Assembly: GCA_025360125.1 (NCBI GenBank)
Contig: JANYCU010000011.1
Span: 124,001 to 188,000 of the forward strand
DNA: 64,000 nt
Direction of reading: 5' to 3'
From: Armatimonadota bacterium
GTDB taxonomy: Bacteria; Armatimonadota; Fimbriimonadia; Fimbriimonadales; Fimbriimonadaceae
Made by a program: the position numbers and the translations under genes. Position 1 is the first letter of the stretch. Each line of letters begins with the position of its first letter. Under the pieces are notes generated by a model, which saw only the letters and a list, made by a program, of their open reading frames with translations, did no database searches and was not told where the DNA came from. This document shows, piece by piece, positions 19,427 through 57,912 of the stretch.

Positions 19427-20262
19427 TCCTTTCCTTCCTTCTGCTGACTCAATCCTCGACGACCATCTATTCGGTGTACATGCCTACAAATCATGTTGCG
19501 GTGATCGAGAGAAGGAGTGTCCAGAACGGAGCGATCAAAGTTGAAGCGTCGATGGAGCTTCCTCAATCTCAAAATTACCGTCTAATTGACCTCAAGATTG
19601 CGCCAAAAGGCAACTATGCCTTGGTTTGGGGGCACCGAAAGAAGGGTGTTTCATCCTGTACTTGGATATTCAACTCAAAGTTGACCAAATTAATCGCAAG
19701 ATTTGCTTTTGAAGACCCATATACGCTGCCGTTGTGGAAGACGGCAAATGTTCTGTGCTACATTGGCGCTGGAAGACCGGGACGAAGCTTAAATGTAAGG
19801 CTCTCTGGCGAAAGCGTGGCAAGCAAGGATTTTGTCCCACACCAGAAAAATCCACATAAAATCCCTACTCATGCAGCCGAAGCAAATGAATTCATGTTGC
19901 ATCGCGGATACGGCCCTCTCTCTGGCCCTCACTCTTCAGGAGAGTACTATTTTGGATCACACAAAGAAAATGCCCTGGTTTCTGAGTCAGGAGACACGAT
20001 ATGCGCGAGCACTCGGATCTCGAATACTTCGCCATTTTCTCAAGTTCGACTCTTGACTCGAAAAGGCACCCAGTGGACCGATAGGGTGCTAGCCGAAGTC
20101 TACGGTCATCCTATGCTGATCCTAACTGACCCTATTCTTAGCGTGCTCTCAACCAAGGATGATGTGGGTGAACTATCGGTCTTTGATATCAATAGTGTCA
20201 AATCGATCGGCAAATTTCGAGCCGACGCCGCCGACTCGGCCCAAATACTGTTTGGACGCTAA
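19423..20262 (+). CDS. Hypothetical secreted protein, possible beta-propeller
   Basis: A 279-residue protein of no recognised family. The first ~13 residues are hydrophobic (MILSFLLLTQSST), so it may be exported. Strand-like segments separated by Gly and aromatic turns (IAPKGNYALVWGHRKKG, ISNTSPFSQVRLLTRKG, DDVGELSVFDINSVKSIGKF) suggest a propeller, but repeat units are too weak to assign. The GTG start overlaps the DUF1501 stop (GTGA), so it closes the five-gene operon. After its stop there is no obvious terminator before the RAYT element. Confidence 0.65.
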   Translation: MILSFLLLTQSSTTIYSVYMPTNHVAVIERRSVQNGAIKVEASMELPQSQNYRLIDLKIAPKGNYALVWGHRKKGVSSCTWIFNSKLTKLIARFAFEDPYTLPLWKTANVLCYIGAGRPGRSLNVRLSGESVASKDFVPHQKNPHKIPTHAAEANEFMLHRGYGPLSGPHSSGEYYFGSHKENALVSESGDTICASTRISNTSPFSQVRLLTRKGTQWTDRVLAEVYGHPMLILTDPILSVLSTKDDVGELSVFDINSVKSIGKFRADAADSAQILFGR

Positions 20263-20443
20263 CAGTGCGAATCAGTAATCGTCTTCTCCAAACTCTTTCC
20301 ATGCCAAATGTCGTTGTCGAGGCAGTCGGAGGATAGGCAGCCTGCCCGCCGAAGCGCCTTGGCGAAGGCTGGGTCCTCGCCTATATCACCGATTTCTAAA
20401 CGCCAAAACACAAGGTATTGCTTCCCTTTTCACCCGGGTCGAC

Positions 20444-20492
20444 TACCGCGAAGCGGTTACACCCAAGTAGCCGTGGGTGCGTGCACCCACGG
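20444..20492 (+). repeat. Left inverted terminal palindromic repeat of the RAYT element
   Basis: Begins TACCGCGAAGCGGTTACACC and includes the perfect 10-bp-arm palindrome at 20471-20492. It is the inverted partner of 21040-21088, differing at three positions, one of which lies in the 2-base loop. Each half could fold as a hairpin recognised by the transposase. Confidence 0.85.
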
Positions 20493-20534
20493 ATAGTTCT
20501 TCAATCTTCCGACCCCGAAGCGGGTCGCACCGTT

Positions 20535-20972
20535 CTAATCCAAATACCTTGGATCATAGTCAATGGCTGCCAACTTAAGGATTTCTAATCGTTCCTCCTC
20601 GAACGTCACTTCGTGATGATGTTCGGCTTGGTTCAAAATATAGTTCGAAATCATGTTCAGATCACTCGGACTGACCGCAATGGCCGCATATCCATCTTGC
20701 CAGGCAAACGAAGGAACTCTTTCCCGCATCCAATGGCTGCTCGATTTCTTTAACTCCTGTACGAAGTTGGAAACGTTCTGAGTCGATTTGATTCTGACCA
20801 AAATGTGGACATGATCGGCCACGCCACCAACTTTGATGGAAACCGCGCCTAATCCTACGATGGTGCCGACGATGTATCTCAGCAATTGATCCAAGAGGCC
20901 GTCGGTCAGAAATGGCGTTCGATTCTTCGTACTGAAAATGATGTGAATATTAAGAGCGAGGTAGGTGGACAC
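20535..20972 (-). CDS. REP-associated tyrosine transposase (IS200-like Y1 family)
   Basis: The 146-residue HUH endonuclease resembles TnpA of IS200/IS605 and RAYT proteins. Its N-terminus is STYLALNIHIIFSTKNRTPF, the HUH metal site is GGVADHVHILVRIK, and a helix with the candidate catalytic tyrosine is SNYILNQAEHHH. The EEERLEILKLAAIDYDPRYL tail is also typical. I take the GTG at 20972 as start because it places the family N-terminus correctly; the same frame continues upstream through the palindrome at 21040-21061, which would be translated as a meaningless leader. It is intact and therefore possibly active. It lies between the inverted palindromic ends. Confidence 0.88.
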   Translation of the reverse strand: MSTYLALNIHIIFSTKNRTPFLTDGLLDQLLRYIVGTIVGLGAVSIKVGGVADHVHILVRIKSTQNVSNFVQELKKSSSHWMRERVPSFAWQDGYAAIAVSPSDLNMISNYILNQAEHHHEVTFEEERLEILKLAAIDYDPRYLD

Positions 20973-21039
20973 GTTCAAACCATCATATCTGAAAAGGTCT
21001 TGTGCGACCCACTTCGGGGTCGTTATTTTACGTTCTCGA

Positions 21040-21088
21040 CCGTGGGTGCAAGCACCCACGGCTATATGGGTGTAACCGCTTCGCGGTA
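21040..21088 (-). repeat. Right inverted terminal palindromic repeat of the RAYT element
   Basis: Inverted copy of 20444-20492, containing the 22-bp palindrome at 21040-21061 and the outer GGGTGTAACCGCTTCGCGGT sequence. It lies upstream of the transposase start, so it may also affect transposase expression. Confidence 0.85.
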
Positions 21089-21107
21089 AGGATGATTAAA
21101 ATCAAAA

Positions 21108-21335
21108 CTACGCTTTTTTCACCAACTCAACCTTCGAAATTGAACCGTTCTTGCTCAAATCCTTGCCGTAAATCACCGTCGCCACCGCCTTAATCTCCGG
21201 ATGACCCGCAACCGAAATGGTCGGCACCGAGCTATAGCCCGCTCCGCCGTCAACCACCTTAAACCCGGTGATCGCGCCTTCACTCTTAACCACTTCAATC
21301 ACCGCCGCATTCGTCCGCCAGTAGTCCCAGACAAA
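21108..21335 (-). pseudogene. C-terminal fragment of a secreted protein
   Basis: The frame encodes about 75 residues. It includes ITGFKVVDGGAGYSSVPTIS, a motif of the repeated Gly-x-Gly-Tyr type found at the ends of some secreted or adhesin-like proteins, and closes with VELVKKA. Upstream, protein-like sequence (VWDYWRTNAAVIEVV) continues past the only available start (a GTG at 21302) and then meets a TAA at 21336-21338. It therefore looks like the end of a once longer gene rather than a complete small gene. It lies 20 bases beyond the RAYT element, so its truncation may be linked to the insertion. Confidence 0.5.
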
Positions 21336-21431
21336 TTACACGGCCTAATAATATTAATGGTTTGCATTTTTCATTTTCTTAATTCTCATCTAAATCTGAT
21401 CTCACATGGTCCGGTCAGCACAGCAGATGCT

Positions 21432-55821: not shown

Positions 55822-56661
55822 ATGATTGCAAAGCTCGTCGGTGTCCACATGCCGATCAAGAACGGACTCGGAGGCGCGATTCGCCAGGGACATAAAATCG
55901 GATGCACCGCGGTGCAGGTCTTTACCAAGAGCCCACAGCTCTGGAAAGCCAAGCCGATCTCCGACGAGATGGTCGCCGACTACAAATTAGCCTGCTCCGA
56001 GACCGGAATCTCTTCGGTCATGTGTCACGATTCCTACCTCATCAATCTCGCTGCCGCCGGAGAAGAATTGCGGGAGAAGTCCATCGCGGGATTGACCGAT
56101 GAAATGAATCGGTGCGCTCAATATGGGATCACCCTTTTGAATTCTCACATGGGTGCGCACGTTGGGCAAGGCGTCGATGAAGGCATCAGACTCCTCATCA
56201 AAGGGGCCAAATCGGCGCTTGAAAACTCCGACCCCTCCGTCATGCTCGTTATGGAAACCACCGCCGCTACAGGAACGTCACTGGGAGCCACATTTGAACA
56301 GCTTCGAGCAGTTCTCGATGGCCTCCACGGAGATAAACGGGTCGCCGTCTGTATTGACACCTGCCACATCTTCGCAGCCGGGTACGACATCCGTACCGCC
56401 GAAACATTTAATCAAACCTTCACCAAATTTGACGAAATCGTCGGATTTGATCGGCTGGTCGGAGTCCACTGCAACGACTCGATTGGTGGGCTCGGCAGCA
56501 AAAAAGACCGCCACGCGCACGTCGGCGAAGGCGAAATCGGAGAGGAAGGCTTCCGGATACTCGTCAACGACAAGCGCTTCGAATTCATCCCGATCATGCT
56601 CGAAACCCCCATCGAAAACGAAGGGCACGAGAGAGACTTGGCCAAACTGAAGAGCTTTTGA
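55822..56661 (+). CDS. nfo: Deoxyribonuclease IV (AP endonuclease, TIM-barrel)
   Basis: A 279-residue Nfo-type endonuclease for abasic-site repair. The AP-endonuclease-2 landmarks are visible in VGVHMPIKNGLGGAIRQGHK, HMGAHVGQGVDEGI, VMLVMETTAATGT, VAVCIDTCHIFAAGYD, LVGVHCNDSIGGLGSKKDRH and HVGEGEIGEEGF, which contain the tri-zinc ligands. I use the ATG at 55822; the frame extends upstream into the divergent region but without family-like sequence. It is divergent from manB. The 3' end is followed directly by a large hairpin. Confidence 0.94.
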   Translation: MIAKLVGVHMPIKNGLGGAIRQGHKIGCTAVQVFTKSPQLWKAKPISDEMVADYKLACSETGISSVMCHDSYLINLAAAGEELREKSIAGLTDEMNRCAQYGITLLNSHMGAHVGQGVDEGIRLLIKGAKSALENSDPSVMLVMETTAATGTSLGATFEQLRAVLDGLHGDKRVAVCIDTCHIFAAGYDIRTAETFNQTFTKFDEIVGFDRLVGVHCNDSIGGLGSKKDRHAHVGEGEIGEEGFRILVNDKRFEFIPIMLETPIENEGHERDLAKLKSF

Positions 56662-56666
56662 TATGA

Positions 56667-56727
56667 AGGGGAGGAGCGAGAGTTCCCAAGCTGACGGCGG
56701 GACGCTTGGGAACTTCGTTCCTCCCCT
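56667..56727. repeat. Large imperfect hairpin after nfo
   Basis: Two ~25-base arms (AGGGGAGGAGCGAGAGTTCC and on; GCTTGGGAACTTCGTTCCTC and on) pair with few mismatches around a 12-base loop. It stands between the convergent nfo and DUF3472 genes and may stop transcription from both or be a REP-like element. There is no T-run typical of a terminator. Confidence 0.7.
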
Positions 56728-56736
56728 CCATGAAGA

Positions 56737-57912
56737 CTAATCCCTCGGAAAATCGATCGGCGGCTTCGTCGCCGTATTGATCCGATTAAACTTGTCGCCA
56801 AACTTGACCCCGTTGGCAACCGCTCCGCCGTTGCTCAGGAACCAATGGTCGCCCTTCGGCCCCGCCGCATAGTCGAATCGATCGTTCTTCCCGGTTGCAT
56901 CGCACGAAAACTGAGCCTCCAAATGCTCCTTCCACTTCCCGTCGTGGCCAGCGACAAACACCGGACCAAACTCCGCCATCCGCTGCAAGTCCCCATTACT
57001 ACCGCCAAAATTCTCGTTGAATGAATACAGCCCCTTCATATACGAGCCGTCCTTCGGTGCCCGGAACTGCGCAATCAATCCCCAAGACTTCTTCTCATTA
57101 AAATAGTAATAGCCTGAATAAATCGTCGCATCACCATCGGGTTTGGCGTGAACCAAGAAGCGATGGACCGCATTGGTTTTCCAGTTGTAAACCATGTGGC
57201 TGTGTCCACCCGTGCCCTCGTTGCCAAAGTCACCCGCAAAAACACCCTCTCCTTTTTTCAACAGCTTCACCCGGTTGTCGTCACCCACGCGATTCCGATC
57301 CACGGCTTCCTTGCCTGCATCCCAAACCGAGAAGATGATGCGCCTTTCGGTCGGAGAATTCACTTGAATTCCAAAATAACCTCGATGCCATCCGCACGCC
57401 TCGTAATAGGTGTATTTCGGATTGGTCTTTGGCCGAACCTCATTGTAAAACCACTCAGCCTCTTCATCCGCCGCCAGCGGATACTTCAAATGGACGCTGG
57501 CACAGTTGCGCCGCTCTTTCATGTTGAATCGCGCACCGACCGTCGACGAACCCGTCAGTTGCAGTCCGCCAATGGTGCCGTTGTCAACCAAGACAGTAGC
57601 TGGCTGAACGCTCACCGTGATTTTCTTATAACCCGGCTGTCGAATCAAAAACTGAGCCACGTTGGTTCCAGTAATCGTCTCACGGTCGCTGTCAACCTGA
57701 ACCGTATATCGCCGACTTGCAAGCCCACCCTTCAGCTCCAAGCTCAAATTCCCGCGTTGCAATTCACCGATCCAAACCAATTTTTGCTTGCTGTCGTTCC
57801 ACGGTCCTGCTCCTGCCTGAGAAATAGGAATCCCCTCATCATTCGGCTCAGAATAAGCCGTGTACGCGGGAACAAACAAGGTCGGAGCGAAGACAAGGGC
57901 AGCGAGAAACAT
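56737..57912 (-). CDS. DUF3472-domain secreted protein
   Basis: A 391-residue protein with a signal-like N-terminus (FLAALVFAPTLFVPAYTAYS). An N-terminal beta domain (about residues 25-130, DUF5077-like) precedes a DUF3472-like region with WFYNEVRPKTNPKYTYYEAC, GWHRGYFGIQVNSPTERRII and FSVWDAGKEAVD, all typical of that domain, and it ends around NRINTATKPPIDFPRD. The family occurs on secreted proteins of Bacteroidetes, Planctomycetes and related phyla and is of unknown function, possibly carbohydrate-binding. It stands alone on its strand, and the upstream hypothetical gene is 70 bases away. Confidence 0.82.
   Translation of the reverse strand: MFLAALVFAPTLFVPAYTAYSEPNDEGIPISQAGAGPWNDSKQKLVWIGELQRGNLSLELKGGLASRRYTVQVDSDRETITGTNVAQFLIRQPGYKKITVSVQPATVLVDNGTIGGLQLTGSSTVGARFNMKERRNCASVHLKYPLAADEEAEWFYNEVRPKTNPKYTYYEACGWHRGYFGIQVNSPTERRIIFSVWDAGKEAVDRNRVGDDNRVKLLKKGEGVFAGDFGNEGTGGHSHMVYNWKTNAVHRFLVHAKPDGDATIYSGYYYFNEKKSWGLIAQFRAPKDGSYMKGLYSFNENFGGSNGDLQRMAEFGPVFVAGHDGKWKEHLEAQFSCDATGKNDRFDYAAGPKGDHWFLSNGGAVANGVKFGDKFNRINTATKPPIDFPRD

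Follow-up and report, generated by a model that had tools for sequence, protein, structure and literature searches.

A candidate hairpin substrate flanking a subclass 1.2 TnpA-Y1 transposase gene in Armatimonadota and its counterpart in the Acido-Lenti-1 family

A 645-bp unit at positions 20444–21088 of the window, the whole 64,000-nucleotide stretch analyzed here, consists of two mirror-image 87-bp arms facing each other around an intact tnpA gene. This arrangement is probably a REPtron-like unit, in which a single-stranded DNA HUH transposase of subclass 1.2 would be encoded between inverted copies of its own substrate of about 87 nt and would mobilize hairpin units. Elements of the same layout were found as solo arms in the source genome, beside related tnpA genes in other genomes of the genus, and beside tnpA relatives in other phyla, where one half of the element coincides in part of the loci with the Rfam family Acido-Lenti-1 (RF01687) read on the opposite strand.

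Anatomy of the unit and its transposase

The left arm (20444–20530, plus strand) carries a small hairpin, H1 (ACCGC-GAA-GCGGT, 20445–20457), a GTAG tag at the foot of H2 (20467–20470), H2 itself, which is a 22-bp palindrome (20471–20492), a variable linker (20493–20509), and a second small hairpin, H3 (CGACCC-CGAAGC-GGGTCG), followed by CAC (20510–20530). Five solo copies have the same layout. Inverted-repeat search and arm alignment placed the right arm at 21002–21088 on the minus strand, with H1 at 21075–21087, ATAG at 21062–21065, H2 at 21040–21061, the linker at 21023–21039, H3 at 21005–21022, and CAC at 21002–21004. Alignment of nine arms gave the order T, H1, approximately nine bases ending in CA-n, GTAG, H2, a linker of 16–18 nt, H3 (CGACCC-6-GGGTCG), and CAC. 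The H2 palindrome of each outer arm reads CCGTGGGTGC-nn-GCACCCACGG. The GCGAAGC inside the H1 of the window is a motif known to form an extraordinarily stable DNA mini-hairpin.

The earlier note had described a 645-bp unit with 49-bp inverted ends, palindromes, and an inner inverted pair, and the inverted-repeat search and shuffle control confirmed this description. The outer pair (20444–20492 and 21040–21088) spans 49 nt at 94% complementarity, and the inner pair (20510–20530 and 21002–21022) spans 21 nt at 95%. The longest exact inverted repeat in 20200–21400 was 22 nt, versus at most 13 nt in 200 base shuffles of the region. Folded as single-stranded DNA, the two arms of the window gave z-scores of −4.09 and −4.40, within a span of −3.3 to −4.4 for the arms examined. 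Elsewhere in the window, a long hairpin at 56652–56741 matched several animal miRNA models below threshold on both strands; it is probably a mere inverted repeat, and the matches were taken as chance hairpin matches. Apart from these, the window gave no Rfam match at E ≤ 1.

The tnpA gene (20535–20972, minus strand) encodes a Y1 HUH transposase of 145 aa, with its stop at 20535 and a likely GTG start at 20972. The open frame extends to 21059; in the second copy of the unit (contig C40 of the same genome, 44138–44783, 87% identical), a TGA lies just upstream of the same GTG. The two encoded proteins are 86% identical, and with dN of approximately 0.07 against dS of 0.36–0.47, both copies have therefore been kept under purifying selection. 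TnpA matched Pfam Y1_Tnp (E = 3.5e-23) and passed the NCBIfam transpos_IS200 model (60 bits, cut-off 55). A sequence search of solved structures found only ISDra2- and IS608-type transposases, with a best E of 4e-5. The AlphaFold2 model, built with 62 relatives, had a pLDDT of 90.5 and a pTM of 0.82; this predicted fold superposed on ISDra2 TnpA with Z = 14.1 (rmsd 1.6 over 104), on IS608 with Z = 13.6, and on the E. coli RAYT 4er8 with Z = 10.0 (rmsd 3.5 over 121).

The relatives used below comprise home proteins and a foreign set, the latter being 80 of the 158 TnpA relatives from a scan of named genomes. An alignment of 62 relatives, composed of 60 of the 79 stop-free foreign proteins and two home proteins, showed H54 and H56 of the HUH motif H-V-H (residues 54–56, 20805–20813, minus strand) to be invariant. 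Tyr111 (codon at 20640–20642, minus strand) was likewise invariant in these 62 and is the presumed nucleophile, as judged from the family. The window TnpA contains DHVH, WQ, and YILNQAEHH. Among the 80 relatives, WQ occurred in 80, Y..Q..HH in 79, and DH[IV]H in 67, while Y-x-x-N-P occurred in none. By motifs and length, the protein fits TnpA-Y1 subclass 1.2 and not a classical RAYT. The earlier note had named it a RAYT, an assignment that was not supported as worded: the score of 22.1 bits with the NCBIfam REP_Tyr_transpos (RAYT) model is below its cut-off (80), and the protein has Y-x-x-N-Q-x-x-H-H, not Y-x-x-N-P. Its other claim for the gene, one intact HUH-Y1 transposase between inverted GTAG-tagged hairpin elements, was supported. 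TnpA relatives were found in 2 of 72,556 plasmid records.

Distribution of the elements and their association with tnpA

The palindrome occurred at nine sites in the 4.13-Mb source genome when up to three mismatches were allowed (six exact, three with one mismatch), and a reversed-pattern control gave no matches. It is thus not unique to the ends of the unit in the window. Four of the nine belong to the two tnpA units and five to solo arms with unrelated flanks; the gene-less copies seen in this genome are single arms. The linkers of the two tnpA units are unalike, and their hairpins are nearly identical. The genome-wide family predicted in the earlier note, with the core it had named, therefore exists at low copy. 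It is multi-copy, but it amounts to nine arms of the window sequence and at least 26 elements of the wider kind, not hundreds. The copies are dispersed, as scattered short palindromes would be, but the part that appears to move is the three-hairpin arm of about 87 bp, more than the 22-bp palindrome. The earlier note had suggested checking whether the copies are intergenic. Of ten frames of at least 100 aa chosen beside the solo arms, five scored above the cut-off of a Pfam family, and no solo arm lay inside any of the ten. The solo arms are only apparently intergenic, since two of them also overlap further frames, open from stop to stop, of 118 and 123 codons.

Other element families of the source genome were seen at L124 598–713, L141 566–680, L142 552–661, and L143 505–612, in which the loop of H2 holds tens of additional bases with a sequence of its own. 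At another locus, L106, two elements (522–609 and 1060–1147) lie 538 bp apart and have approximately 25 nt of left flank, and no right flank, in common.

A covariance model (R2) built from the nine arms found elements in 8 of 20 genomes of the genus. The 57 matches at E ≤ 1e-5 formed an alignment (A5), from which a further model (R3) was built; 74 of the 89 R2 matches were listed, and A5 includes a few poor ones (L112, L113, and the second match of L110). Across the 1160 cells of A5, 96.5% were paired, versus 81.2% when shuffled and 30–52% when slid, and 16 of 21 pairs changed on both sides, figures that are favored because A5 was fitted to the structure. All five pairs of H1 covary over the 57 elements, and H1 and H2 vary in sequence yet keep pairing. 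G-T pairs were rare, barely above A-C mismatches (13 and 7 of the 1160 cells, respectively). The tag was TTAG in 28 elements, GTAG in 22, ATAG in three, and other in four, and most of the 57 have CA plus one base after H3. A GNA triloop closes H1 in 49 of the 57; since its complement is UNCG-like in RNA, the loop cannot separate a DNA from an RNA reading. In genome G007, the elements listed (0.3–4.4 Mb) had no orientation bias (approximately 14 plus, 19 minus), and GC skew at 20 sampled points was too weak to place the origin and terminus.

The association with tnpA was assessed in 38 neighborhoods out of 56 tnpA rows in 61 relatives. With a limit of 300 bp, R3 elements were present on both sides of 21 genes, on one side of eight, and on neither side of nine, and in all 21 two-sided loci the elements were inverted. 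Without the ten genes whose arms had helped build the model, the counts were 14, 5, and 9 of 28, respectively. None of 17 other Y1 loci, nine of which have a readable Y-x-x-N-P, had an R3 element, a weak control because these loci come from four genomes with almost no elements. Co-occurrence was evaluated by Fisher tests whose p-values overstate the significance because the compared genomes are related and not independent: among the 61 relatives, 14 had both element and TnpA, six TnpA only, two the element only, and 39 neither (p = 1.6e-7); within the genus the corresponding R3 counts were 11, 3, 1, and 5 (p = 0.018), and by RF01687 p was 0.14; among 78 genomes of the Algoriphagus yeomjeoni family, 23 had RF01687 and TnpA, 16 TnpA only, one RF01687 only, and 38 neither (p = 3.8e-8).

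The nine of 38 home genes without an element within 300 bp count against the REPtron-like reading. Strict dependence on tnpA is opposed by genome G005 (locus L248), whose elements occur without a detectable Y1 transposase. G005 has at least 52 RF01687 matches, and the one element read has the full layout; searches of this genome for TnpA at 1e-10 and for PF01797 at 0.001 both came back empty. Many of its RF01687 matches have equal scores, and a Y1 transposase may have been lost, missed, or supplied from outside. Five further genomes (G016, G021, G023, G031, and G146) contain elements with TnpA-1.2 undetected.

The foreign relatives come from Verrucomicrobia, Bacteroidetes, Planctomycetes, Acidobacteria, Chlamydiae, Hydrogenedentota, Armatimonadetes, and others. 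Two of the 80 loci had too little flank for comparison; in 44 of the remaining 78, the left and right flanks were mutually inverted at a score of at least 50, versus at most 26 in 156 shuffles. Elements lay within approximately 1.5 kb of tnpA in 53 of the 80 loci (R3 at E < 0.001 in 48, RF01687 over gathering in 23). RF01687 gave 41 matches over its gathering threshold of 37 bits in these 23 loci, at a density that was 1.08 per kb in the 100 bp next to the gene and did not exceed 0.07 per kb at distances above 400 bp. The nearest RF01687 match, weaker ones included, was on the minus strand in 22 of 27 cases on the left and on the plus strand in 20 of 24 on the right. In the genomes holding foreign TnpA loci, RF01687 was present in 27 of 32 (21 over the cut-off), versus none of 14 control genomes.

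Twenty-five of the 41 RF01687 matches overlap R3 matches, all 25 in antisense, with an offset of 0 in 24 and −1 in one; the other 16 have no R3 match. RF01687 is therefore the reverse complement of H1-spacer-TAG-H2, and it spans only two of the three hairpins. The arms of the window gave no RF01687 match at E ≤ 1, and their tie to Rfam runs through R3.

Gene-less inverted dimers were observed in three genomes, where pairs were chosen because two matches were close and inverted. In G085 (Pirellulales), 14 of 14 pairs were perfect inverted dimers of approximately 186–220 bp, and ten further pairs in G063 and G089 were alike (24 of 24). No target duplication was visible by eye at the G085 dimers. 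Among the 25 of 28 arms that could be parsed, mean pairwise identity was 0.89 for H1 and spacer, 0.91 for TAG-H2, and 0.84 for H3, and linker identity was 0.50 versus 0.45 when shuffled. At a Chitinophagaceae locus (L241, 1–1064), 16.2 tandem copies of a 65-bp module of small hairpin and TAG hairpin form an array that ends approximately 200 bp from tnpA.

A similar tandem array, with alternating small and TAG hairpins at a period of approximately 70 bp, lies near tnpA at L213 (approximately 280–1360). Three G085 elements (L276 1–130, L301 250–365, and L304 240–345) carry tandem duplications of their outer ends, with junctions at the base of H2 that follow TTAGCCAG in two and TTAGCC in one; in two of the three, the repeated stretch begins 14 nt outside H1. 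These duplications could mark TnpA cut sites or replication slippage. In L282, L299, and L303, G085 dimers are found just within a different inverted-repeat element, whose ends read TGAGTTTTG(C/G)ATAAG, an arrangement that looks like the capture of one mobile element by another. By coordinates, none of 13 matches to the end pattern was a clear empty copy of this host element.

Proposed mechanism and competing readings

The substrate element would be H1-[G/T]TAG-H2-linker-H3, about 87 nt long. In a single-stranded state, for example on the lagging-strand template, H1, H2, and H3 would fold, and a TnpA dimer would bind the TAG-H2 hairpin. The TAG would then serve as a guide and direct cleavage to a CA or CT next to the small hairpins; the element itself ends in CA after H3. 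Cutting and rejoining by the tyrosine would excise a single unit or an inverted dimer, or copy it elsewhere, without target duplication, and the tnpA-bearing unit would be an inverted dimer that carries the gene at its center. Corneloup et al. (2021, PMC8266576) show that, with a class 2 enzyme, the GTAG tag helps choose CA/CT cut sites, the choice being made by T2/G4 and A3/G4. The elements described here conserve TAG, which holds the positions named in that work, and CA after H3. We infer from this correspondence that TnpA-1.2 may bind TAG-H2 and make its cuts next to the small hairpins.

Besides this REPtron-like reading, four others were considered. In a rather unlikely one, Acido-Lenti-1 would not be an RNA gene but the DNA on which a TnpA-1.2 system acts across phyla, with units built module by module. 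Small-hairpin and TAG-hairpin modules would be moved or copied singly, each step leaving a fresh stretch of approximately 16–24 nt between them, which would explain the near-random linkers between near-identical hairpins and the arrays growing beside tnpA. The element might instead be a structured RNA, as Rfam files Acido-Lenti-1, such as a regulatory RNA or terminator that tnpA merely uses or adjoins. Strong covariation is compatible with such an RNA, as is the UNCG-like loop of the small hairpin on the RNA strand. RNA helices usually favor G-U pairs, but G-T is barely above A-C here (13 vs 7 of 1160 cells); the inverted arrangement around tnpA in each of the 21 home loci with elements on both sides, the perfect inverted dimers, and the tandem arrays also count against an RNA, and no fixed gene context was seen at the five solo sites. 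Rfam types RF01687 (Acido-Lenti-1 RNA), an orphan family, as sRNA; Weinberg et al. (2010) rated it a probable RNA; a 2026 paper states that its function is little known and suggests a regulatory role; and a 2023 paper lists it. We consider the RNA reading unlikely.

The two remaining readings place the unit within known transposon classes. Were the 645-bp unit simply an IS200/IS605 insertion sequence accompanied by MITEs, it would move as an IS and the solo arms would be deletion relics. TnpA passes the NCBIfam IS200 model, its nearest folds are ISDra2 and IS608, and H1 and H3 are like-oriented hairpins, as the ends of IS200/IS605 elements are. To our knowledge, those elements end in a single hairpin on the left and a single one on the right and lack inverted repeats, whereas here whole inverted arms flank the gene; solo arms also outnumber tnpA units, of which there are only two copies at 87% identity, and this reading is quite unlikely. 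A classical RAYT/REPIN system with a merely diverged class 2 TnpA-REP would account for the GTAG-tagged palindrome, the inverted flanking repeats, and the gene-less inverted dimers. It is very unlikely for this protein, given Y-x-x-N-P in 0 of 80 relatives and Y-x-x-Q-x-x-H-H in 79, 22 bits against the cut-off of 80 for the NCBIfam RAYT model, and closest solved structures of the IS200 type.

Relation to known systems

Table 1 of Quentin et al. (2018, PMC6006769) gives "no" for REPs in subclass 1.2, and their text describes it as without the properties of an IS. TnpA agrees with that account in DHVH, WQ, Y-x-x-N-Q-x-x-H-H, length (approximately 148 aa there, 145 aa here), and low copy. It departs from the same account in that multi-hairpin TAG elements flank the gene, and the type occurs here in many more phyla than the Cyanobacteria and Bacteroidetes given there.

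With REPtrons and REPINs, the system shares GTAG at the palindrome foot, inverted elements around the gene, and a palindrome sequence particular to each gene. Inverted dimers lacking tnpA, as in REPINs, were seen among the pairs selected in G085, G063, and G089, and the gene-less copies seen in the source genome are single arms. As in class 2 RAYT systems, the gene is flanked by tagged palindromes (GTAG left, ATAG right), with nine arms in the genome. The protein class is different, every arm carries an additional two small hairpins as well as a variable linker, and the tag is more often TTAG than GTAG (28 vs 22 of 57). With IS608 and ISDra2 of the IS200/IS605 family, it shares the Y1 HUH fold (Z of 13–14 for the predicted model), like-oriented end hairpins, and no target duplication seen by eye. 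Unlike that family, it has inverted 87-bp arms, non-autonomous single arms and dimers predominate, and no tnpB was found between the arms. The correspondence with RF01687 as the reverse complement of H1-spacer-TAG-H2 is in exact register, but Rfam files a small RNA covering two of the three hairpins, and its model misses the family of the window.

GTAG-tagged stem-loops occurring as singles, dimers, and clusters, in the PVC superphylum among others, were reported by Di Nocera et al. (2013, PMC3733652), and some of those families may therefore overlap the present elements. The consulted portion of that study describes single tagged stem-loops tied to RAYTs and contains neither the three-hairpin arm, nor subclass 1.2, nor Acido-Lenti-1. 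Parts of the system may thus have been seen before without the link to subclass 1.2. In the literature searched, with subscription papers and preprints outside its scope, no paper tied subclass 1.2 to such repeats.

Subclass 1.2 TnpA-Y1, a branch between IS transposases and RAYTs that has been filed as repeat-less, hereby gains a candidate substrate. An orphan Rfam family that is still annotated and discussed in genome papers as a regulatory RNA would be reinterpreted as part of this substrate. Our results suggest that both class 1 and class 2 gave rise to REP-like systems.
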